NCBI GenBank assembly: GCA_022316685.1
Contig: JAKJHU010000046.1
Coordinates: 1,976,001-2,040,000, forward strand
DNA: 64,000 nucleotides
From: Progne subis subis
Taxonomy: Eukaryota; Chordata; Aves; Passeriformes; Hirundinidae
Direction: 5' to 3'
Shown: positions 2,339 through 58,000 of the stretch, in pieces
Numbering within the stretch: the first letter of the stretch is position 1
Layout of the letters: each line of letters starts with the position of its first letter
Notes under the pieces: model-generated
Databases searched by the model: none
The model's input: the letters and a program-made list of their open reading frames with translations, nothing else
Told to the model about the DNA's origin: nothing
Program-made: the position numbers and the translations under genes

Positions 2339-13014
<10,676 letters not shown>

Positions 13015-13057: not shown

Positions 13058-16000
13058 GTAAGTTCAGTGTTCCCATCCCTTCCTTGGTGTTGTTTTGTGT
13101 GAGTGAGCTGGAGAATATTTTAACCATTTTGGGGTCAAGTAGGAGGGGAGGAAACATGCTTTCAGTTCATCATGGTGTAATGGTGATCGCTTTACCTGAG
13201 CTGTTGACCAGTGTGAAATAGGAAATTTTTTGTTTGGAGAGGAGCACATTGTATTGTAGTCTGGTACAAAACAGGAGTCAGCATCCATAATTGGCTCATG
13301 ATATTTTATTAACAAATTTCTTGTGAGAAATTCAAGCTGATATCATTAGCTTTCCCATCATAAACCAGGAGTGAAGAGCTCTTATTAGGTAGGAGTGTTT
13401 CCTTTAGACCTGAGGCAGGGACAGGGAAGTAATATTGGTGAGAATAGGGACAGGAGCTATTTGGGTATTTTATTACTTTGACTCATCAAAAATGGGTCTG
13501 AAGTGTCTAGCTATTAGTTTTCCTTCTTGGAGTCTCAGAAGTGGTTTTCATCCTTTTAAATTTAATAGCTGGTAATCTGGCTCCCACCCAACTGCATTAT
13601 GTAGTGCATTTACTGAAAATGCAAATCTCAACATGTAAATCCATGCTTTTTGGAAGATTATTGTCTTGGCTCGGCACACCTAGGTGACGCAATCTTGTTT
13701 GTGTTCATTTTCACTTGGGTGGAAAACCTCTATTTGTAAGTGCTTTTGATTTATGGGATCTTTGTTTTCTTTACCCTCTTTGTAATTTTCTTTCTCTTAA
13801 AAGAGCAGTCATTGAATGTGTGAGTCAGATTTTTATTGCACCTGAATGCAGCTGCCTTCAAGTAGAAGTCTGCTATATGGATTCATCTGGCTATTTACTA
13901 ATGGTGGATACCAATAGTTATATTCTGGATGTTGTTACAATAAACTTGTTATTGGAATGAAAACCTCTGTGAAATGGCCATCCCAGCATACAAAGTGTAT
14001 ATTCATGCATACATTCTTTTGTGAACTCAAGGCAGAGTTTTTAACCTTCTGTACGGTGATAAAAAAAAAAATTATGTGAAACCATGGTACAATTAAGGGC
14101 CAACCCTCTGCAACATCCATACTTTTTTTCTTAGTTCTTGCTTTCAGGTAGACCTGTGCCAATATGTCAGCATTACTTGTGGCTACAGCAATTTCTTTTC
14201 ACTGCATTTCTCATAGTTTGGCCTTAAAGGGACAGTGATTTTATCCATTCATCTGTCCCACTATTGTGCTATTACAGGGCTTAAAAATTCTGTACTGTTT
14301 TCTGAGATTGATTCTGAAATACCTGTTTGAGGAGCTGTGGCACAATGACAGGACTTCCACAGGCCTGTACTGAGCGAAACTCTTCCTGGGCCTTCTGCTG
14401 CCGTGAACTGATTTTGTTCTCTTCACACAGCTCATCTTCATTTCACTTAATTGATGATTCTGAAATACACAGGGGTTTTATTCTTTTTCTAATAAACAGA
14501 AGTTTTAGATTAGTCTTTAGTCTGCAAATGTTGTATTTTCTAATGGAGCTGCAGAAGTGCTTGGGTAAGAAAATCTCTTACAGCCAAGATCTCCACTACA
14601 CGAAATGCCAGAGAGAACGGTTCTCCTTAATGATGTGTGACCTATACATCCACGTAATCCCTGAGCTAGCACTGAGGAAGAGAAACCTTGCTGTACTCAT
14701 TCTTCTCCGTGTCAAGGGCCAAAGCTGCTGGATCCACTTCAGTTAACAGCTGAAGAAAAGGAAATCCTAGGTGGCCCTATAGTGAGTGCAGGGTTTGCAG
14801 TGTCAGAGTTCTGCTTTGAATATAAACTGTGATTCCAAGTATGAGACACTCAGAAAAACTGTCCAGAGAGAGATGTTAGAAATTGAGATGCAAAGCCTCT
14901 GTTGAGAGTAGCAATTCCTTACATTTTGATGTGTTTTTAGAGGGGTGAGATCATCTACTCATATTTTCTTTGCAGTGTAATATGAGCTTGACTTTTTTAA
15001 AAATTGTAATTATTTTTAAATTTACTTAGATTTTCTAGTTGGCTGCAGTTGAAGTAGATACATCTGCTGGAATTAAAGAATAAATGCATGCTAACTGGAA
15101 GTAATAAGTTAAAAGGTTTGTGTGGGAACTTTGGGTAAAACTCAGGCTTTTCTTACAATGACAGGAGTCTAACTGCCCTTGAAGAGTTCTGCAAAAATAT
15201 TTGTTTCTTTCCCTAAAGCTCTTAAGAGGATTTTATTTTCTTGGATTGGGTGACACTATTGTGTGGGTTTTTAGAAGTCCCATTCCCAGCAGACAAGGAA
15301 ATAGATTTGTGAAGAGAGAAGCTTCTTCCTGCCTGGGGATGAGATCTCCTAAAAGCTTCTTTCACAGATGTTTTGAACAAAGAGGAAGATGAGGGCTCAT
15401 GTGACCCCAATATCAATTAATTAGGCACAATTTTACTATCTGCAGGTAATATGAGAAGACTCCTTTAATGTTCTTGTCATCACTATCTCCTGTGTCACAT
15501 TTTGTAATGGGGAGTTCCTTCACTGTGTAGGCCTGTGACAAATTGTATTCCTAAAGAATCTGTAGCAGTACTCTCTCTCTTTTCAGCCCATCAAAAAATC
15601 TTCCTTTTTATAAAGGGAAAAAAAAAAAAAAAACCAAACAAAAAACAAACAAAAACAATCAAAAAAAGTTTCTGTTCTTTTTATGAGTGATTTGTGCTTG
15701 CTATGTGCCTTGTACCCCAGGCCAGTTAAGTTAAAGGACATCTGGTTTCTTTCCCCAGTTATGATATATTTGGCCATGTAATACTGGCTGGTTGTGGTTC
15801 TTTTTAGAAGATTGCATCTCAGGCCAGCTGTAGGCGATTTATTAAAAGCAGGTACAGTTGCACTCCTTTCAGTGTAAGTCAGGAAGTCACAATAAGGGAT
15901 TTCTAGCTTCTCTGCACACTCTGGTAGGTTAATTCAGCTGCAAGAGAGAGCAATGCAGTCGAAGTCTTGCTCTAGGATTGTTAGGGTCACACCAGGGTGC

Positions 16001-33609: not shown

Positions 33610-33678
33610 CCACAGAGCAACAACAAAACCAGTATAGTAAGCACTGCAAAAGAAACACCCCCAGTGCAGACGTCCATG
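33610..33678 (+). CDS. CAMK2G: CAMK2G alternative exon with two donor sites (PQSNNKTSI / +VSTAKETPPVQTSM)
   Basis: The acceptor is CTCAG at 33605-33609. The short form ends at 33636 before GTAAGC and encodes PQSNNKTSI. The long form runs to 33678 before GTATCT and adds VSTAKETPPVQTSM. Mammalian gamma isoforms carry PQSNNKNSL with or without VSPAQEPAPLQTAM at the same place, so both halves and the alternative donor are conserved. The internal donor is the stronger one by consensus. Both ends are phase 0. The VS dipeptide at the junction is the GTAAGC donor read as codons. Confidence 0.93.
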
Positions 33679-35937: not shown

Positions 35938-35986
35938 GGTTCCACAGAGAGCTGTAACACCACAACTGAAGATGAGGATCTGAAAG
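35938..35986 (+). CDS. CAMK2G: CAMK2G linker exon GSTESCNTTTEDEDLK
   Basis: This 49-nt exon lies between ATGCAG and GTAGGT. It reads GSTESCNTTTEDEDLK, then leaves one G. That phase-1 exit is shared by all hub-entry alternatives: the G joins TG of the hub exon to give valine, or CT of the 114-nt exon or of the candidate cassette exon to give alanine. Confidence 0.97.
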
Positions 35987-38018
35987 GTAGGTATTTTGCC
36001 TGTAATTTCTAATACAGTTAAGTGTAAGCAAGGGATTCTAGAGGTTCAATCACTGCCTTGAACTAGCTTCCCAGATTTCTGTGTCTGACTCAGTTCATAA
36101 ATTCGCCATGACGTTGTCATTCCTGTCACAGTGGGACCGTGCATTGGGGAACTGTCTTACTCAGCCTCTGTGGTATATAAACACTGAGCTGATTTGTTTT
36201 TGTCTCAGAGTTGGAATTCTTTTCTTGCATATATCACAATCTGTTCATCTCCAGCCCATTTCTAGGTGTGGAAAATCCCTACCAGTCCTTTGAGGTTTGG
36301 TCTCTGCTTGTGTTTCTGTGCTTCCCTGTAGATTACAGGGAGTTGAAACTTCTCTGTTACTTACTCAGTCTCCCTTTTCACCCCTTTCTAGGAATCTCTT
36401 TTGTGACCTGAAAAGACTTCCCTTGTTATTTTTTCTCTTTGGGTCTATATTTTTTTTCTAAGATGAAGATCATTCTCAGCCTGTTGTCCTTGACTGAGAT
36501 ATCAGTAGAGGGAGAGGCTGAGAAGAGATTTCATGCCTTTCAGTGACCGTATCATAAATATTCTGTGCTTGTGAAACTCTTTTAAATGAAGGAACTCCAA
36601 GTTCTATATCTGCTCTTGTTGTTTGAGCAGCTATCTTTTGCCTAACCTCCCTAATGAAGGACATGCATTTTCCTGAATAAGCAAGTTTGGGATGGGTAAA
36701 GGTAGTTTGCATTCTGAGACAAATGTGTTAATAACTTGCATTTTGTGGCAGAGGTATTCTCATTCTCCCTTCAGTTCATCTGAGTTACTTATCCAGGGAA
36801 AAATGAGTGCTGACCCTGTGATGTAACAGCAATGTCACATCTGTCAGTGGGGTAGTTCCTTATGCTTTTCCCATGACTTGTCACAAGCTGCTGGCTCCTC
36901 TTCTGAGGAATCACAGGGAGCAGAAACACATGTCAGTGAGTGAATGAGCTCTGCAATGCAGATTGGTTCAGCTAAGACCTGACCTTATTACAGGACAGTA
37001 CTCTAGCTCCCATCCTTTTGCCAAAGGGTAATCCATGGTTTAAGAACCTGGCTTTGAGGGATGGGAACTGGATGGGTTTCATAGTGTGGTAATGAATTTG
37101 ATCTATCATCTCTGCTGGATAGCCATCCAGAATAGGTATTTGTCCAGAACCTTGTCTGCTGTGGCACTTTTTATTTTGGAGAGGCCCCATGTTTGAGCTA
37201 GATGAGCCAATGGGTGTTGTAAGTCAGGAATAAAAAGCTGTGAGGAAAAGAAGTCTAGGACTGGAACAGAAGGTGGGGAGGAAGGAAGGCAGCTGGTCAA
37301 TGTATAGAGTTGTATAGGGCTACATTGCTACAGATCAAAACTGTGTTCTGGTTTTTTTGGCAGAGGTTAGAAAATTTTGTTATGATTTTAATAGAAGGGA
37401 GCATTTGAATGGTGATTGGGAGGGAAAGAGTTTGCACAGTAGTGGTTTGTGCTGTGGCCAGCTCTGGTAATTTTAGTCCTCCACTTTTAAGTGTAGCTGT
37501 GTTCACCAGTGTTCCTTTTCCATTCCTGCCTTTCCACATTTTAAGATAAGCAAGCATTTGAGCAAAACTAAGTAGACCAAAAGGTTTGAGACTGTTGGAA
37601 GTTCTCAGTGTTCTGCATAGCCATGACTCTCCAAAAAGTGAAGTGTTTGTGCAGTTCCTCTGCCAACTTCTTGTTTTAAATAGACACCAGGATACACAGA
37701 TCAGCTCTGGTGTGCTGTAGGAGACATTGTCTCTATCCATCAGTGACAGTTGCCTCAGGGATAAGTTGTTTCCACTGTGGTGGGGCGAAAGGCAGTGTGT
37801 GTTGTTCTTCCTCCGCCCCCTGCCCTTGTGTCATTCTAAATTGCACAGCCGGTTCATGTTGTAGAGCTGTCTATTTGGCTTTGCCCTGGAGGATACTCCT
37901 GCATGCTTTGTGCCCAGCATTGTGGTTTCTTTAATGTTCTCCTATTTCCTTTCTCTTTTTTTATTTACTGAACTTGCGTGTTTTGTTTGTGTTTGTGTTT
38001 AATTCCCTGCCATGCTAG
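35987..38018. other. CAMK2G intron
   Basis: This intron of about 2 kb ends in CCTGCCATGCTAG. Nothing other than intronic sequence was recognised. Confidence 0.7.
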
Positions 38019-38132
38019 CTCCCCCTCTCTCCACCGGGGACGCCAGCTCAGTGCTTGAAGGACGGAGGCACAGTGAGAGCAAAACACAGACTGAGTCCAT
38101 GCAGTCCCAGCTTTCTCTCTGTTTCTCGGCCA
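38019..38132 (+). CDS. CAMK2G: CAMK2G alternative 114-nt linker exon
   Basis: The exon has acceptor CATGCTAG and donor GTAAGT, with phase 1 in and out (38 codons). With the carried G it starts APPLSTGDASSVLEGRR and ends MQSQLSLCFSA, leaving an A. Joined to the hub exon this gives methionine then RKQEIIK. A rare mammalian gamma isoform has an insert of the same length with the same skeleton: PL-TG--SSV-EGR, then MQ-Q-SLC-SA, then M-RKQ. The middle is poorly conserved, as is usual for the linker. It is Ser/Thr-rich and probably disordered. Confidence 0.88.
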
Positions 38133-38375: not shown

Positions 38376-39805
38376 CAAAAACCAAAAAAACCCCAAACCA
38401 CAGAACTTCATCCTAGCTAATTTCATTCCCTTGCTTTCATCTGGGTGTGATGGGGAATCCTCTGCAGAGACACTGCCTTTTGGGGTTTCCTTGGGCGAGT
38501 CACTGCATCTCTTACTTTTCCTAGTGGTTAATGGGGTCAGTGGTGCAGGTCTGCTTATGGAGGGGATGCACGAGACCGAATTCAGTCTCACTTGTCCAAA
38601 CTTCTTAGGGTGCTCGGGTATGGATGGTGCTCAGAAGTACCGAAGGAACAAAAACCAGTTTTTTCAGACTATCTTAAGGTGCTTTGAAAAGGAGGCTGTG
38701 GCTCCTGAAAAACCCCAAAGCATTTTTGAATCCATTATCGGGTGTTTTGAGTGAGAATCCTGGGATAATGTTGGCTCTGAAGAGCATTTGTCTTTAGTGA
38801 GCTTTGCCTTGTGTGCTTGTCTTGCTAGCTCAGTTAGCTGGTACCATGGTTCGTCTATGAGTTGTAGTAAGTTCTGAGTGATATCTCCTGAACTTGCTAG
38901 CTCTGTAGACAGCCTCTGGCTGACAAACTCTGAAAATGCATATGGAAAAAGCTAATAGGTTGGAGAAAATCTAGGTGGAATTCACAGCCTTTCTCCAATG
39001 CTGCTTGACTATTTAAAGCGATAGTAGAAGGATCTTTAGTGTCAAGTGGGAACATCTGGAATATTTGATTCTGTTCAGGTCAGTCTAGGAAGGAAGAACC
39101 AGGCATCCTCTCTTTTGTTGCTTCCTGTTTTATTTTCCTGGTTTTCTACACACAGCACCAGTAACTCATGTGATGCAGCAGTTGCAGCATCTCTGTTGCT
39201 TGTTTTTGAAGTAGGTCGAAGGATGTCAGACTACTGGTTTGTAAGGTGCAATGGGAAAGATGTTTTGCCTAGCCAGAATGGAAGGGAAATGATCTCTCCT
39301 GAAGTCCTTTTTGCTATGAGCTGTCCATCGCTTCAATCTTACTAATTCCTTCCTCTTGTTCATAGCAAGGCCCTGCTTGGTACACTGAGGAGTGCCAAAT
39401 CACTTCTCTGCCAAGTGGGTCCATGTTCTCCCACTTTGCTTCCCTCCAAGTTGAGATTTGCAGTGATTTGGATGTCCCTACTCTCTTTAACCCCACCTTG
39501 TACTTGCCCTTGTGCTGCTCTGTCACTACTCTGACCACTGTTTTAGGTCACCCTCAAACTTCCTCCAGCACTAGTGTAATTCCTGCTGTGCTTTTTGCAC
39601 CAGTGCCCGGGTGGCCCCTGCCAAGCAGTGTCTGGCCCAAGTGATGTGACAGAGGCAGGAGAGCAGGTAGAAGTTATTGGGATGTGGATGTGTCTGCGTG
39701 CCGACCGGGACTGGGGCAGTGTGTGTCTGTACTTCTTTGTTGGCTTTTATTTTACTTTCTAATTTTTGTTTGTTTATCGTTTTAACGCTTACATTTGTTT
39801 TGCAG

Positions 39806-39931
39806 CTACACAGTCTTGTGAAGAGAAGCTCCATGCCTGGGACAGCCCAGGGCAGACATTGGAGTTAGAGCGTGCTCGGTCGGAGCCTTTGCTAACTCCA
39901 GTAGTTCCCTTTGTACTTAACCAAACACCGT
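39806..39931 (+). CDS. Candidate in-frame cassette exon of CAMK2G (126 nt)
   Basis: This stretch is not recognised from any isoform I know. It is preceded by a T-rich tract and TTTTGCAG and followed by GTAAGTTA, a near-perfect donor. Its length is 126, a multiple of three, and both ends are phase 1. It therefore fits between the EDEDLK exon (or the 114-nt exon) and the hub entry exon. Of its three forward frames only the phase-matched one is open; the other two hit stops. It would encode ATQSCEEKLHAWDSPGQ, then LELERARSEPLLTP, then VVPFVLNQTP, Pro/Glu/Leu-rich and possibly phosphorylatable at LTP and QTP. It could also be a chance pseudo-exon. Confidence 0.55.
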
Positions 39932-40072
39932 GTAAGTTAGCAGCTGGATAGCAGTAGTGGAGTAGTGCAACTCATGCTAGTCACCCTAGATGTAAAGCTC
40001 CCTCCTCTCTCCTCCCCTGCCCCTCACCGCCCGTCCGAGTCGGGCCGGGGCCGAGCGCTCCGAGCCGGCGCC

Positions 40073-40240
40073 ATGGATCCCAGCGAGGGGCGGGGCTGCA
40101 GGGGCCAGGGGCGGGGCGGAGAGCGGCCCCGCCCTCGGCTCGGCCCCGCCCTCGGCTCGGCCCCGCCCTCGGCCCGGCCCCGCCCTCGGCGCGGGGCGGG
40201 TCGGAGTCCGAGCCCGGCCCGAGCTGTGCCCCGGCCTTGA
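40073..40240 (+). other. Short open frame in the CpG island (55 codons)
   Basis: The ATG lies in the context GCGCCATGG, which is an ideal initiation context. It opens a frame beginning MDPSEGRGCRGQGRGGERP, followed by Arg/Pro/Gly/Ala-rich sequence, and stops at 40238-40240. The composition is dictated by the GC-box repeats, so it is probably an incidental or upstream open frame, not a functional protein. No family was recognised. Confidence 0.25.
40124..40191. repeat. Tandem repeat, 4 x 17 bp GC-box units
   Basis: There are four consecutive 17-bp units, each CGGCCCCGCCCTCGGC plus one variable last base (T, T, C, G). Each unit holds one CCCCGCCC GC box, so the array gives four evenly spaced Sp1-type sites. 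Confidence 0.93.
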
Positions 40241-42366
40241 ACGGTGCCCGCTGCACGCCCCGCGGCGCTGCCCGGCCGGCGGTGTAGCTGCTGTGGCGGG
40301 GCTGCCTCCCTGGGCTCGCACAAAGCGCGGTGGAGCAGCCGCAGGCCATGCTCGAAGTCCGTGCTGGTGCATGTCGCCTCACGCTTGTGCTCTGCCGTGC
40401 CAGTTTGGAGGCCCCGCGGATTCATCGGGAGCGGCAGGCGCGAATGCCGTCCCCCTGATTGACATCCTGAGGCTCTCTGTCCTTCGGACGGAGTGGTCAG
40501 CTCCCGTGTGCCGGTTCTAACTCGGGACATGTAGCGAAAGCCAGGAGACGAGCACAGTCTGATGGCATGGAGTAGTGTTGAAGGGCAGGCCTGATGGCAC
40601 CGCATCAAGGCACCTTGGAAGGGGATGCAAATTTCCTTAAGATGAGCCAGCACACCGTGGCTGTGGTCTGCAGACTCCCTCACTCATCCCAAATGCGGCC
40701 TTTCACATGGACTTCATCTTCTGAACATTTGGAGGTCCAAGTAGCCCTTCTTCATGTGAAAGTAATCCCAGACAACTTGCTTGTGAGAACACTGCCCACA
40801 ACAGACATAGCCCACTGTGTCGTTTTGACCCTTTCCCTGTGTACATCTTTCCACATGTGGAAGTGCATGCAGCCTGCATAGCAAAACCAGCCACCTTATT
40901 GTCCCCTGTCTGAGGGGTTTCTGAGGCTGGCTCAGTAGTAGCATTCTCTTAACTGGTTTCCAGAGTGGGTACGGAAGTTTCATAGCCAGTGAGATTGTTA
41001 TCTGGTTCTTTGGCTGCACTTACCAATGGTGGGATGAAGTGCACATGTGGATGAAAGCTTATGGGCAAGGGGCAGAGCAGTTCACAGTAGCGTCTTCTGG
41101 CATTTAGAATGCAATTCATCTTCCCTGACTTGAACATCTAAAAACAGTAGGTTGGATTTAAACACCACCCCCCTAATGACAGGCATCCACGATGCCTATG
41201 TGAGACTTCCAGAAGTCCCAATTTCTTGGGAGAACAGTCAGGGGACTGGTTGCATTTCAGACACCTATATTTTAGATGCTGAAGGGCACAAGAATGGCAC
41301 TTGTAGTGGTAGGAATTTTATATTATCTGATAACATTGAAAAGAATGCTAGAGAACCTCTTGAATGCCTGTATAATGTGCAGAAGAGTCTGCCTAAAGGT
41401 GTGAGAAAGGCTGAAGAGATGTGAGGTTGTACATATAGGCTCAGGCATGGGTGTGGTGCACATAGTAGTCGTAAAATAGAACTGTGTTGTTTAACAGACC
41501 TAACTGAAACTTTGAGACCAGCATGGATGATAGAACACTAGAGAGGGGATGGGGCCTGGGCAATCTGCTGTGGGGAGCCAAGAGAAGAGGCTGCACAGGT
41601 GCTGGTGACATGGGAGCCAAACAACAGTAGACAGACAGCACTTTTCTTAATCCATCTTGAAGTCCAGTGTGCTGGGCTGGGTTAATGGCAATGCTATTAA
41701 GAGTGCTGTAAAGAATTGTGCTATAGGGATTGGCAGAAGCTGCCTGAAGAACAGTGTGCACACTGAGACATAGCCAGGACCTGCTCATCCAACCCATCCA
41801 TCCTGCTGCCGTTGTCTTTCTAGCTTGTAGAAGCCATTCCTACATGTCCCAGTCGCTTGTTTGCAGCATTCGCAATATCTGAGGTATTGATGATGGTGAT
41901 AGACAAGTTGTTGGGAGACTCTTTCCAATTGCCTTGATCTATGTGGTGGCCATTTGTATATGGCCCCTGGTGTGAAGATTTTTCCACATCTTAAGCTGCC
42001 AGACAAGTACTTCCCATGGGCAGGGTCACTGGCAGTCATTGGTCAGACTCCCCAGAAGCAGCTCAGGCTGTCATTCAGGAGATCCCTCTGATGCTTTAGG
42101 CCTTTCTAGAAGAAAAAAAATTAATATGGTCTCTTTATTCCCTTTCTCTCTGCATTATGGGATCACCATTTCCCTTTCATACCACTACCCCCCTACTCTC
42201 ATGTGGATCACTGTCTTTAGCGTGTATCTCCAGAATGCAGGGAGCAGCATCCTATGAGAACTAGACTAATGGTGCTCTACAAATTGCTTGTAGGAAGCAC
42301 CCACTATCCTCATATTTCTGCTGAACTCTTCAGCACAGCTAAATTGCTCTTTCTTCTTGTTCACAG

Positions 42367-42442
42367 TGCGTAAGCAAGAAATCATTAAGATAACAGAGCA
42401 GCTGATAGAGGCCATCAACAATGGAGATTTTGAGGCTTATAC
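42367..42442 (+). CDS. CAMK2G: CAMK2G exon: hub domain entry (VRKQEIIK)
   Basis: This 76-nt exon has acceptor TTCACAG and donor GTAAGT. With a G carried from the linker it reads [16 protein letters not shown] then [10 protein letters not shown], ending two bases into the Thr codon. It is the first helix of the hub (association) domain, a cystatin/NTF2-like fold that assembles 12-14 subunits. The INNGDFEAY sequence matches gamma; beta has VNNGDFEAY. Confidence 0.97.
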
Positions 42443-51129: not shown

Positions 51130-54100
51130 TATGCCTTATGTTTTAGCTGACAGCAGGGATTGGGAATGGTACTTCCCTGCATTGTAATAGTTCCAGTATT
51201 AAGCTATTAAACAGGGATATTCCCAGAACCTTACTTCCCAGTATGCTATAGCTGGCTAAAATCTCTTCATCCCACGAGATGAAGTTTTGCCATCTTCCTA
51301 CCAAAGACAAGTGTCTAAGCATGTTTTCTTAAGTTCCTTCCCAACTTATGCATGATTGTATACATAGGTAGGTTATGCTGCAGGAGACCTGTAAGTGATG
51401 GTAGCTTTATTTACGCCCAAGTAGATTTCCTTTTAAATTAGGATTGCTCTCTTCTCAGTTGCTGGGCTAGTGGCACAAAGGCCTGGGAGGACGCTCCTGT
51501 GCTTATGGTATCTATGAGATGTGGGGAGAAGTATGAGCAGAACTGGCCCCTGAATGTCAATATCCTTTCCATTTTATTATGAAAATTGTTACCTCTTACT
51601 TATGTGTAATTGATAACATAGAAAAACAAACAGAGCATTTGACTAATGATTGGATTTGTGATCTGTTTTTGGGTTTGCTATGGCTTTGCAGAGTGACTGC
51701 AGAAAAGCCAGCTGTGTGCTCTGTGCTTCAGCTTTCCCATTTGTCCATGCAGACGATAAGCCTGACCTCTGTAGAAACCCCTGTAAGAGACTGATGAACA
51801 GTGCTCCAGAGCAGCAAGGTGGTATAGCTGCTACACATCACACATGATTTTTTTTTTGCCTGAGAATTTGAAAGGTTTGGGACTGCAGATTAAGGCACCT
51901 GGAATGCTTGTTTATTTGGGTTTGGTATACATTTATTTAAGAGTAGAGAAAGGTGATCCTTTGGGGGCACTTAAAGCAGCCTGAGTAGAGGATTATGAAT
52001 TTTTCCCTTGAGAGTCTTAGTGCCTGAGAACTCCTCACCTGCCAGAATGTCTTTTTTGCCTGCTGGTAAGGAATAGGAATTTACTGGTGCATAGTACTCT
52101 GAAGAATTTTAAGCTAATGTACTTAACAAGTATTAGAAAACAAAAATGCATATGTTCATGGTTTTTAAGGCAGACTGGCAACAAGGAAATGATGGATATA
52201 ATTAAGTTAATAAAATCTCCTTCTGAAAGTTTCTTGTGGTACAGGAGAGACCTCTAAAATGCTGGTGGACAGGGGAGAGGGAAAGGTGGTTGTGCCTAAT
52301 CTGTGACAATTTATATAATTTTACCATAATTATCCATGAAAATTGATGGGCAGGATGACATTTATTCACAGAAAACCATTTTGTTAATGCATCATACAAC
52401 TGCATGTTGGCAGACTTGGGATTTGGCCAGCACTTGCAATGAAATACTGTCTCATCATGGTTTATTTCTCCTTCACACTTCTGTGGGAAAGAGTAGTGCT
52501 CATACCAAGAGAGGATAGGCTGCATAAATGGCACCAGGGCTCTGCTTCAGAGGCTTGTTTACATTGGAACATCGTATAGGTTACATCAGTAGTCAGAGCA
52601 GTGCTACTGCCGTATGGTTGTTCCTGTTCCAGAAAGCGTTTGTTTGTTTCTTACTACAAGTCTAGAAGTTCAGAATAAACTGAAAAAATTACTTATACAA
52701 AAAAAGATACGTTCTACTAAAGTGACATTTGAAATTCATTGCTTTAGATTTAGCATATTTTTCTTGTAGAAAAAAGGCCCAAACTTGGCATAGATAGTCT
52801 TAAATGTTCTTAAGAACTGTAAACAAATTAGTCTTGCTCATTCCAAAACAGTATTAATGCTGAAATTGTTTTATATATGGTAAGTTAGCAAGTTTTAACA
52901 CCTTCTAATCTGTTACAGTATCAGTAAAAATCTTCCATACCTATTATAAAGACTGTATTGAGCTTCAGCAGAAACAGCGAGACATTTAATCTTCAACTTT
53001 CCCTTTAGGAAGAAACAAACCTCAGCCATTAAATGCAATATCTAGGGAAAGATGGCTTATGTCACCCTAAGAAAGAGAAATTGCTTCAGTGAAATGCAAC
53101 GTTACCAGGGACAGCACATGCTAAGTGAGGTAGGCACAGAGCAATGTGGTAACCTGAAGACACAAGTCATAAAGCCAAACACTGAGTGGTTTGGAGTGTG
53201 GGGAAGAGAGCGGAGATGCAAGATGGAGTTGAAGGTGTCTTGCAAGTGTGAGTAGAGGAAGTTACGTATGGGGTAGCTAGAAAGGCAGTGGGGACAGTGG
53301 GATGGAGAGTTGTGGTGGAATGAGAAGGAAAGCAGGTGAATTCTGTGCTGGTGGTTTGAGGAGGGGTTTGGAGAGATGGGGCGTATTTTGGGGTAGTTTC
53401 TTCCCTGGCACATTTAAATATTTTTACCTGATACTCTTGCAGTAGTATGGCAAACTATAGTGTACAACATACCCTCCTGTCAGTGATTTCCCTCCCTCAC
53501 TGTAACTGAGATAGGTTGGACTGAGGAAGAGATGGGAACTACCAAAAACTGTTATTTTTTTTACCAGAATATCAAATCATATTTTGAAATGGTAAATCCT
53601 ATTTCACAGAATGTAGTACTGGATGATGAATGCTACAAGCACATAACACAAAGTGCTGAGCTGCTACAGAGTCCCCCTCTTGGCTCATATTTGATCAGCT
53701 GTTTTGGAAAATGCAAGGTCTCTGGTAGAGTGGCATCACCTGTTGCTGCCATGCTAGCTTTGGGATGGCTGCAAGCTGGGGGACAATATTAATCTGATGT
53801 GAGCACTGTAGCACATGTTTGGATTTACTCAACAGAAATGCAGTCACGTGTTAAAATAATGTGCTGCTGGGTATTTTGGCAGCACAGAACTCTGCGATGC
53901 GACTGCAGGTGGTGGGAGCAGCTGCCTCATCAACCTCTGCTGAGCTGGGGGTGCTGTCAGCCAGAGGCAGAACAGGCTTTTGAAGCCTGCTGAGATATGA
54001 CTGCTCATAGCTTTTGTCTGCTTTTCTTCAGTCATTTGATTCACCTGCTAACAGGCTTGCAGAAGCCTGGTCAGTACTTCAGGTGCAAATTGATTAGCTG

Positions 54101-54886
54101 AAGATTAAAAGCCCTCTATAAATGTGTCCGTAAACCATGGCTTTCAAGCTTTTTAAACTTTTCAGTAGAGGAGCAGGTTCCTGTACAGCAAGTCTATATA
54201 TTGCAGTGCCTTTTTGAGGGTTTTCTGAGGATTATTCACAAGGTGCCAACAATCCTGTGACACCAAGATGGGAAGCAGTACTTTGCCAATATGAGGCCTT
54301 ATTCCCTGGACATCTGCTTTCCCTTTGCTTGCTCCTCTTCTGTCGCTTTTGACTGCTCCATGTCCCAGTTGTGTTAACCTGTCCCAAATATTCACTTTCT
54401 GCAGCTCGATCCTCTCCACAGCAGATCCAAAAGCAGGACTGCATAATAGGACTCCCAGACTACTGTCCACTCCTCCAGCCTCCCCTGAGAATAAATGTTT
54501 CTGTGATGTGGCTTCACATCCCATTCTGGCTTCCTACTACAATTTCCTCCACCTCTTGATCGTAGCAAATTGCACCGTGCGTGTTTGTGTTTCTCGAGAG
54601 GCTGCTGCCGGCGATGTCACGGCAGTGTCAATCCCAACCTACTGCTTTCCTGGGCATCCCACGCCTTCCGCGCTGCCGGGAGCGCCGCGGCCGCGATCGC
54701 GCCGGGCCGCGGAGACGCCGCCGGTCCCCGCTCCTGCGGCCGCGGGGAAGCCGCCGCCACGTGTTTGAGCGCGGGGCGCGGCTGCCGCGGCCGGGCTGCG
54801 GGACCCCGGCCCGAGCCCTCCCCGCCGGGCGCCGCCCCGCGCCCCTCCCTCGCTCCGTCCCTCCCCCGCTCCGTCCCTCCCCGCGG

Positions 54887-54897
54887 AAGATGGCGGC
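54887..54897 (+). promoter_or_regulatory. YY1-type motif AAGATGGCGGC
   Basis: This is a perfect match to the core of the YY1 element. In CpG-island promoters this element lies just downstream of the start site and in the direction of transcription. Here it points to + strand initiation near 54.85 kb. Confidence 0.65.
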
Positions 54898-54979
54898 CGG
54901 GCGGCGCGGCGGCGCCGGCTCCCCCAGCGGCCGGACGGACGCGCAGCGCCCCGGAGCCGACGGGCCGCGACCGGCCTGA
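54890..54979 (+). other. Short upstream open frame (29 codons)
   Basis: It starts at the ATG inside the YY1-type motif and begins MAAGRRGGAGSPSGR. It ends with TGA at 54977-54979, well before the donor at 55066. It is probably an upstream open frame in a 5' UTR. No known family. Confidence 0.3.
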
Positions 54980-55065
54980 GCGCTGCTCGTGGCACCGGGG
55001 GACGCCCGTCCGCTCTCCCTCCGGGCCCCGCGCCCTGCCCGCTCGGCGGGGCCTCCTCGCGGCAG

Positions 55066-58000
55066 GTGAGGCGGAGGAGGAGGAGGGCAGCGTGGTGGCG
55101 GCGTACCGGCCCGGTCCGGCTCGGAGGGCGGCGGGGCACAGCGAGCGGCGCTGGCGGGGCCGGGGGAAGTTGTGCCGGCCGGGGGCCACGGTCGCGGTTG
55201 GGGGCGGTCTGCGAGGGGCGCCCGGGGCGTGGGAGGAGGCGGGGGGGCCGGGCCGGGCCGGGCTGTCCGGAGGGCGCTGCCCCCTGCCCCGGAGCCACCT
55301 GTGCGGCCGGGGGGCCCCGCCGGGAGCCCGCTCCGGAGGCTCGCGCCCCAGCACGGGGCTCCGTTGCCGGTCGTGCCCGGGGCCGAAGGTTTCGCAGCCC
55401 TGCCCGGCCGCTTCTGTCGGACGCCGGGCCCCCGACGCGCGGCTGGGAGCGGCGGCCCTGCCCCGTCGCGGCTGCCGCCCCTCGGAGCCCCCTGCGCTCC
55501 GGCCGCCGGCGGGGAGCGGGGTCCTGGGCCGGAGCCGCGCTCCCGGCCTCGCTCCAGCTTTGTTCACCCCACGGCGTCGTGCTGCGCGCCGCGAGGTTGC
55601 CGAGTACGGCGGGACCGGCGCCGAAGTAGTCGGCGTGCGCCGGGGCAGGGGATGCTCCTGTCCCCGTGGCGAGGCTGCGGCTGCACTGCCCGTGCTGCAC
55701 ACGCTGCTGTCTGGGGGCTGCGCTCGGAGCAGGCCAGCCGTGGGGGCAGTTGTGGTACTATAGGCGACGCAACAAAAATTACGTAGAGAAAGCTGATGGA
55801 ACGTGAGGAATCGTTCCTGTAGTATTTTCGATCGTATTTTAGTTGTTAAAACATTTTTGCAGAGGTAGAGCGATAAATTAAAGCATGAGACGTCCCTGTT
55901 TGCTTATGCAAGAGTGCGTAAATTGGGTTGCCTGAATTAGAAGTGAGCAAATGTCACACGTTTGAATTCAGCCACAAGTTACAGTACTCCACACTGGGAT
56001 CCTTTGTGACCAGCTTTGCCAAAGAAGCATTCGGAGTTGTTAATTTTATGTGCGTTTCTCACTAGGAAATGTAATTTTGTCCTTTGTAGCAGAGGTAAAC
56101 TAGAAACTTCTGATGAATTGTTCAGGTTATGTGTAGTCAATTATCTGTGGTAATTGGGCTGGGAAATTTTGGATGATGGCAGTATGGAGGGACACAAACA
56201 TCCAAAGAGCCAGAAAAAAATTAGAAGCTTAGTGTCAGCCCCAAGAGTTTATTGGCTTGGGTACCCACACGTGCTGACACTGCCCGTGTGCACCCGTGTA
56301 GTGATCCCAGAGCCAAGCCATCTCGAAAGACACCCGAGGCGCTCCATCCACAGTGGGTTTGTGCAGTGTTTCTGCATTGGGCTGCTCGGTGCAGCTGTTT
56401 TCATGGCACTGAGATCACTGTTTTACTGACAAAATGGACATAGGACAGGCATTTTAGTTGGTTCTTCACCCTGCACAAAAGTGATTGTGGTGTGTTGAGA
56501 TTGTTGGTTCCAAACACAGCCTGACTCCAGTAGACCAGTTTTGAACCAGTGGAAAATCTCTGTTCTTAAATCTGGCAACCAGCATAAAATGGTCTAAAAA
56601 CTTTCTGCCGTCAGCAGCTGGGAGCAAGTACATATCTCTTACAGTTATCATCTTGTCCAGTTGTTGCTTTCTTCCTAAATTTTTCTTCCTTATCCCAAAT
56701 TCCTATTTTTGTTTGTTCTTCCCTTTTAGTTTTGTTCTCCCCATAGCACATGGTACCGTTTTCCTTGTTGCTTCTTGAACACGGTTTCCTACTGGGTCTT
56801 CTCTTCCCCTATTTCAATATTTCTTCAGCCTTTGTAAAACTGCTTTTTTGCATGCATATATGAACTATGAGGAACTGGAATTTTCAAAAAAAGGTGCAGC
56901 TCAGAATGAGCTGAGAGCAAGGACACAGAGCGGGAGTGGTGATACATCTGTCCATGTCAAATATTTTGCTCCACTTGTAGAAATGACTTTTGCTTGTGGG
57001 TATGGGTTCTCAGGCTGGGTGTCAGAATGGAGAGGGGGGCCAGTCTGGCAGCAAAATGAGATTGTGATACAGAAAAATTGAGAGGCAGTGTTTTGAGGTA
57101 TGGTATAATGCGTGTGGTTGTTTATCAGGACGTGAGCGTGTGCCAGGGCAAGCTGTGTCTCCCAGCAGCATCTAGCAGTGCAGTGATGTTGGGATCTGCT
57201 GCATGGATTTTGCATAAAACGTGTTTCACTGTTGTCCCTAACCTTCAGTCTGATCTGCATCAGAATTCATGTAGGGGCCCGGTAAAAATAGCTTGAGCCT
57301 ACTTTTGTTTTTACATTTATAATTACATATTTGTTTAAAAAAAAAAAAAAATGGGGGAGGTGGAAATAACCAAATGAACCAAATGCAGCTGAGATTTCGA
57401 TGTGACCTGAACCCTATCTCCCCATCACTGAGCCTTGTTTCAGGGGATTGAATGACTGTCTCAGATCTCTCTGTGGTATATCTGGAATATGTGGTGATTC
57501 TCTGAGCAGAGCTGCACAGATAAGATAATGCATTTCATTTTAATTGGCGGAGTTGTTTACACATGATCTCTTGCTCATTTTCCTCTTTTAAAGGAATGCA
57601 TATCTATCCCTGATTACAGCTCAGGTCAAAATCCCTCAGCACTTGTAGCAAATCTCCTTTAATTGGTCTCATTTAGCTCTCATAAGGTTGTGTTTTAATT
57701 CCCGCTCTTCCGAATCCTTTTCCCCAATCTGTAATGTAATTTATTACAGGATATTTTATAGACAAGGGAGCAGCCTCTGGCTGTCAGCAACCTTTGCAGT
57801 GTATCAGATTTCCAGCTCAACAGGCAGCTGCGGTGGAGTTGTGGGTGTAAGGCAGTGATGCTGCAGCAGAGGCACACAGGCAGTCAGTGGTGGCGGCGCT
57901 GGGCATGAGTGCAGGGTTTGTCCAGGATTCTGGAGATAATTGGGGTGAATGCTCCTGTTTGCTCTCTCTGCTTCTCTACTCTTATTCTTGCTTTGCTGAT

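Follow-up and report, generated by a model that had tools for sequence, protein, structure and literature searches.

Optional Exons of the CaMKII Linker

CaMKII is a ring that is held together by hub domains, with the kinases carried on flexible linkers. In CAMK2B, the proline-rich exons 19-21 are optional and lie at the linker-hub junction. The passages covered of a study of CaMKII linkers state that no CAMK2B isoform detected contained any of these three exons (PMC9772828). They also report that the spliced linker of CaMKII beta alters maximal activity and substrates, leaves cooperativity unchanged, and has only small kinetic effects (PMC9772828). Because cooperativity was unaffected there, the tuning of activation by linker length, a premise of the initial annotation, is not settled. 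In mouse brain, the splicing of Camk2g is described as involving exons 13, 15, 16, and 19 only, within the passages covered (PMC9853378). A mouse Camk2g cassette exon that was unannotated, is regulated by Rbfox, and is conserved in human has also been reported (PMC4801060, in part), as has a zebrafish camk2g1 exon that depends on Rbfox1 (PMC4541041, in part). In CaMKII delta-B, phosphorylation of Ser332 enhances 14-3-3 binding, according to the parts covered (PMC12642011). This is a precedent for a linker phosphosite that is read by 14-3-3.

The literature on CaMKII splicing, as represented by such passages, draws for the most part on genes of human and rodents. If a linker exon was kept from amphibians to marsupials and lost in placentals, the standard models would miss part of the ancestral regulation. 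In that case CaMKII gamma of chicken, songbird, lizard, and frog may respond differently, and the placental loss would offer a natural experiment on the length and the phosphosites of the linker.

The CAMK2G Gene

The window is the whole stretch of DNA that was analysed, 64 kb in length. Its + strand carries the kinase, linker, and hub exons of CAMK2G between 2266 and 44342, which together form a single open frame ending in ...SGAPAAPLQ. Upstream of 2266, exons of the gene were sought with a few short motifs. A true kinase exon (6444-6527, + strand) is open in phase 1. The last linker exon before the optional ones (35938..35986, + strand; GSTESCNTTTEDEDLK) ends in phase 1, and the first hub exon (42367..42442, + strand), which encodes V, M, or L and 24 further residues, has the phase that fits the 126-nt exon described below.

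Two other optional linker exons of this + strand gene were found in the window. One encodes PQSNNKTSIVSTAKETPPVQTSM (33610-33678). The other, called x19 here, encodes APPLSTGDASSVLEG...LCFSA (38019..38132, + strand) and is the orthologue of the mammalian insert AAPLRTGNGSSVPEG...LCSSA. Its product is identical to that of the window at 33/38 positions in Anolis and at 19/38 in human. From the exon numbers rather than from sequence, x19 is presumably the mouse exon 19 of the partly covered PMC9853378. An exon of turtle and lizard models, VGRQSSAP...AAGLAEQ, was not found in the window with the two short motifs that were tried. In addition, 14716-14790 encodes GPKLLDPLQLTAEEKEILGGPIVSA, which a Hirundo model (P0132) places between NFS and AAKSLL. 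This could be another optional exon or an error of the gene model.

A 126-nt Exon before the Hub

A coding exon of 126 nt, presumably optional, is located at 39806..39931 on the + strand, with the product ATQSCEEKLHAWDSPGQTLELERARSEPLLTPVVPFVLNQTP(L). Predicted proteins of amphibians, sauropsids, and marsupials have it in conserved form. Its edges are AG|CTACACAG...ACACCGT|GTAAGT. On its 5' side are a T-rich tract and the acceptor TTTTGCAG (39740..39805, + strand). The donor is GTAAGTTA (39932..39939, + strand), and reading through it gives CKLAAG and then a stop. The phase-matched frame is the only open one, with stops in both other frames of 39806-39931. The length, the phase of 1-1, the AG acceptor after the T-rich tract, the GTAAGT donor, and the sole open frame had all been given by the initial annotation and were found again.

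The same annotation had proposed a coding exon in frame between linker and hub. This agrees with the joins, since the exon connects 35938-35986 and 42367-42442 in frame. All four combinations of x19 and the 126-nt exon give a single open frame through to the CAMK2G stop. Inclusion adds 42 residues, or 80 together with x19. An insert of 42 residues before VRKQEIIK had been expected. The length stands, but the residue that follows is L and not V, for inclusion turns the hub-side V (G|TG) into L (T|TG) and the product ends in ...NQTPLRKQEIIK.

The exon shares its arrangement with the optional exons of the variable CaMKII linker: it lies between the regulatory segment and the hub, is symmetric in phase, and keeps the frame. 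Like x19, it is in CAMK2G, at a phase 1-1 junction before the hub, and presumably optional. Unlike the exon, which placentals lack or have in decayed form, x19 (human insert AAPLRTGNGSSVPEG...CSSA) is found in them; it also lies 1.7 kb upstream and has another sequence. Exons 19-21 of CAMK2B, themselves optional, lie at the equivalent junction. The exon is best filed with the known class of CaMKII linker exons, among which its apparent loss in placentals is unusual.

An origin from a repeat was rejected, as a search of the 64-kb window found that the exon region matches beyond itself over just 13-20 bp.

Conservation in Tetrapod Proteins

Predicted proteins, most of them from automated gene models, were explored with three queries. 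A search with the exon and x19 within the whole protein matched 697 of 754 candidates at E<=10, and the best 120 of these are CAMK2G of birds, crocodilians, turtles, and lizards by name. The exon core is present in 120/120. In 116 of the best 120, the insert could be cut out by a simple pattern, after x19 and between EDED.. and RKQEIIK, the misfits being P0038, P0103, P0104, and P0105. The exon alone matched 31 of 36 candidates, which are proteins of 171-544 aa. These matches come from birds, a crocodile, turtles, a monitor, two geckos, three caecilians (Rhinatrema, Geotrypetes, and Microcaecilia), and the frog Ascaphus truei; four further ones read past the donor into CKLAAG. The third query was a chimera of the human upstream exon and 20 residues of the 126-nt exon. 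It matched 368 of 405 candidates, and among the 120 listed, 12 marsupial rows from five species (Dromiciops, Phascolarctos, Macrotis, Notamacropus, and Trichosurus) have both x19 and the exon. Fish and monotremes are not among the matches listed from these searches, which need shared five-residue words and, in two of the three, give the best 120.

The exon segment of Hirundo rustica rustica (P0132) is the same as that of the window. When spliced without the NLS exon and without x19, the product of the window equals P0132 over 422 residues, apart from one insertion of 25 residues for which the window also has the code, near 14716. By this match, the window probably comes from a barn swallow or a close relative of it. 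Over the exon, the caecilian Rhinatrema is identical to the window at 35/42 positions, crocodilian and turtle representatives at 33-38/42, Anolis at 32/42, the frog Ascaphus at 31/42, and marsupials at 22-24/42 (the wallaby at 22/42). An alignment of 18 chosen proteins has A, S, C, E, L, A, W, L, R, S, E, P, L, V, and F as invariant residues. Twelve positions (SC, L, AW, G, L, S, P, L, V, F) are constant across 19 non-placental representatives. Breaks in these twelve occur in four distinct non-placental cores, those of a penguin (Spheniscus, L), Pangshura (P), Macrochelys (C and G), and a gecko (G). Thus, coding constraint across species is seen at the protein level, in predicted proteins. A broken frame in related species had been set as grounds for refuting the exon; none was found among the examined rows from birds, reptiles, and amphibians.

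Because the same in-frame segment stands before the hub in amphibians, sauropsids, and marsupials, there is hardly any doubt that the exon is real. Since it occurs in both amphibian and amniote rows, it is older than the split between them, and judged from these predicted proteins its age is at least that of tetrapods. Two emu (Dromaius) models have the exon, P0032 with x19 and P0121 without it, so the two exons vary separately in the gene models.

The exon had been called undescribed. This holds for the open-access literature, where no description of it was found, several of the sources being covered in passages. It does not hold for the databases: automated protein records of many species already carry the exon, P0132 in identical form.

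In squamates (P0111-P0120, P0125, P0126, P0131, and P0137), there are two extra residues at the start of the exon (ATTTTQSC, ATTATQSC) and in some of them three. This suggests that the squamate exon, as predicted, is about 6 nt longer at its 5' end.

Apparent Loss in Placental Mammals

With the chimeric query, 108 of the 120 listed rows were taken as placental. Of these, 105, human included, join x19 directly to RKQEI. The statement that no mammalian isoform contains the insert is therefore correct for these 105 and fails for the five marsupial species. Because the placental rows either lack the 126-nt exon or have it in decayed form, the Rbfox-regulated mouse exon, as described in the part covered of PMC4801060, is more likely x19.

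Remnants are present in the other three placental rows, from a galago, a dolphin, and a cat. The dolphin (Sousa) model reads SRSCEERLVAWASLGLRSGLARAQYEASLTLAVPSANSGAPL, which is identical to the window at 19/42 positions and has lost the candidate phosphosite discussed below. The galago model agrees with the dolphin in its first part and then diverges; upstream of x19, too, it is odd. The cat (Prionailurus iriomotensis) model reads APVRKGLWPGP, which can be obtained from the codons of RSCEERLVAWAS shifted by one base. All 11 of the testable positions fit this shift, and the best of 500 shuffled cores fits 8. The same kind of shift explains 8 positions at most in the galago, in a test that had no control and is not counted as proof. 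Three gene-model rows are thin, and the 105 rows that lack the exon agree with them. Together they suggest decay of the exon, which seems, at least in predicted proteins, to have fallen out of use in placentals.

Possible Role of the Exon

By the best explanation, CAMK2G has an ancient optional exon that codes for protein, lengthens the arm, places a conserved segment before the hub, may carry a serine for phosphorylation and docking, and decayed in placentals. It is probable, and considerably so. Behind it are the sequence, the frame, the position, the deep conservation in predicted proteins, and the models with and without x19. Whether spliced alone or after x19, the exon would make the disordered arm between kinase and hub longer by 42 residues. 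Directly before the hub, it would place the conserved segment SCEEKLxAW...L-x-R-A-(R/Q)-S-E-P-x-L-T-P-V-V-P-F. Its inclusion is presumably regulated. The serine in L-x-R-x-x-S-E-P may be phosphorylated, possibly by neighbouring CaMKII subunits, and the phosphoserine could then be a docking site, e.g., for 14-3-3. Structure prediction with 18 sequences gave a mean pLDDT of 35; even the kinase domain scored low, and nothing was taken from it.

L-x-R-x-x-S is found in 32/36 distinct exon cores and matches a CaMKII-like substrate pattern. R-x-x-S-x-P, which corresponds to the 14-3-3 mode I consensus, is found in 31/36. The five cores that lack it are from three turtle genera and from the galago and dolphin models. 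Lepidochelys and Carettochelys are without the R of the motif and Pangshura is without the P, and all three keep the exon. A caecilian and a marsupial share 26/42 residues, and by our own arithmetic, made post hoc, five chosen residues would be kept by chance with a probability of ~0.08. The motif is thus suggestive only. The serine of delta-B, Ser332, lies beside an NLS. Both serines are in linkers, but that of delta-B is a 14-3-3 docking site in another gene and exon, whereas here there is a sequence pattern alone. A phosphosite in the exon, as read from this pattern, is accordingly doubtful. A fuller proposal is an ancestral tetrapod phospho-switch. The ring would phosphorylate its own L-x-R-x-x-S-E-P, 14-3-3 would dock, and the compaction or location of the ring would change. 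Placentals would have lost the site, and it would have moved from the exon to its neighbour x19, which in therians carries a comparable R-D-R-T-A-P. This occurs in one human and one marsupial x19 and does not occur in one bird and one Anolis x19. Such a switch is improbable, more so than the phosphosite itself.

The exon could also be real and serve purely as a spacer, with its length of importance and its residues of none. CaMKII linker splicing does alter length, and linker length and composition may influence phosphorylation rates, according to the passages covered (PMC9772828). More drift would be expected of a pure spacer than is seen in the twelve constant positions of the 19 non-placental representatives. 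A spacer role is a possible reading, though on the unlikely side.

Far less probable is that the exon belongs to an internal promoter unit for a hub-only protein. Such a product is made from CAMK2A, as alphaKAP. In the intron before the hub exon there is a CpG island (40020-40600) that begins ~90 bp downstream of the exon. It contains a 17-bp GC-rich tandem repeat, and in 40020-40300 the GC content is 0.84 and CpG observed/expected is 0.9. It is possibly an internal promoter or merely a GC-rich minisatellite. Two Ascaphus models (P0140 and P0141) begin with other residues and continue with this exon and the hub, P0141 starting inside the intron. However, their start seems to resemble the translated T-rich tract before the acceptor, and the exon follows the upstream linker in the 116 rows counted above. 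A start at 40.0 kb would leave the exon out entirely. Beyond the island there are five ATG-donor combinations from four ATGs in 41176-41969. From the ATG at 41176, phase-1 donors can be reached, one of which, at 41398, has a good score of 7.7. Within the island, no ATG-started frame reaches a phase-1 donor at the cut-off used. An alphaKAP-like start in the CpG island was rejected, as the island has no suitable first exon at this cut-off.

A chance pseudo-exon, that is, splice-like sites and an open frame that lie unused in the intron, is extremely improbable and is rejected because amphibians, birds, and marsupials alike keep the in-frame peptide at this junction, which an unused intron would not do. 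In its favour, about one such hit is expected per 64 kb, and the intron contains a pseudo-exon whose summed score is higher.

The expected number of hits comes from a scan of the 64 kb with our own simple position matrices. The cut-offs were the site scores of the candidate, and acceptors and donors were paired at a spacing of 60-250 nt. The + strand gave 22 pairs, 8 of them symmetric, and the two that are open in phase 1 are the candidate and the true kinase exon. On the - strand there were 20 pairs and 7 symmetric ones, none of which was open in phase 1. About 19% of 126-nt stretches are open. By our own arithmetic, the false hits expected are 20 x 1/3 x 0.19 = ~1.3 per 64 kb, or ~0.13 in the intron. 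The better-scoring pseudo-exon (36209-36265) has 57 nt, is open in the same phase, and has a summed score of 17.3, against 16.0 for the candidate. Hence conservation, and not the splice sites, carries the case.

Other Features of the Window

The Rbfox motif TGCATG is absent from 39500-40200. There are three copies in the intron, one of them at 37900, upstream of x19. Many models read on past the donor of the second hub exon (43027), which gives a shortened hub. The read-on is CEWADSS in a turtle (P0066), CEWVDLV in a bird (P0130) and likewise in the window, and REWVRAADILLP in human (P0162) and mustelids. It is possibly an old alternative C-terminus. Farther downstream, 54001-56000 is strongly GC-rich, with a GC content of 0.65 and CpG observed/expected of 0.9-0.98; a neighbouring gene may have its promoter island here, perhaps the next one.
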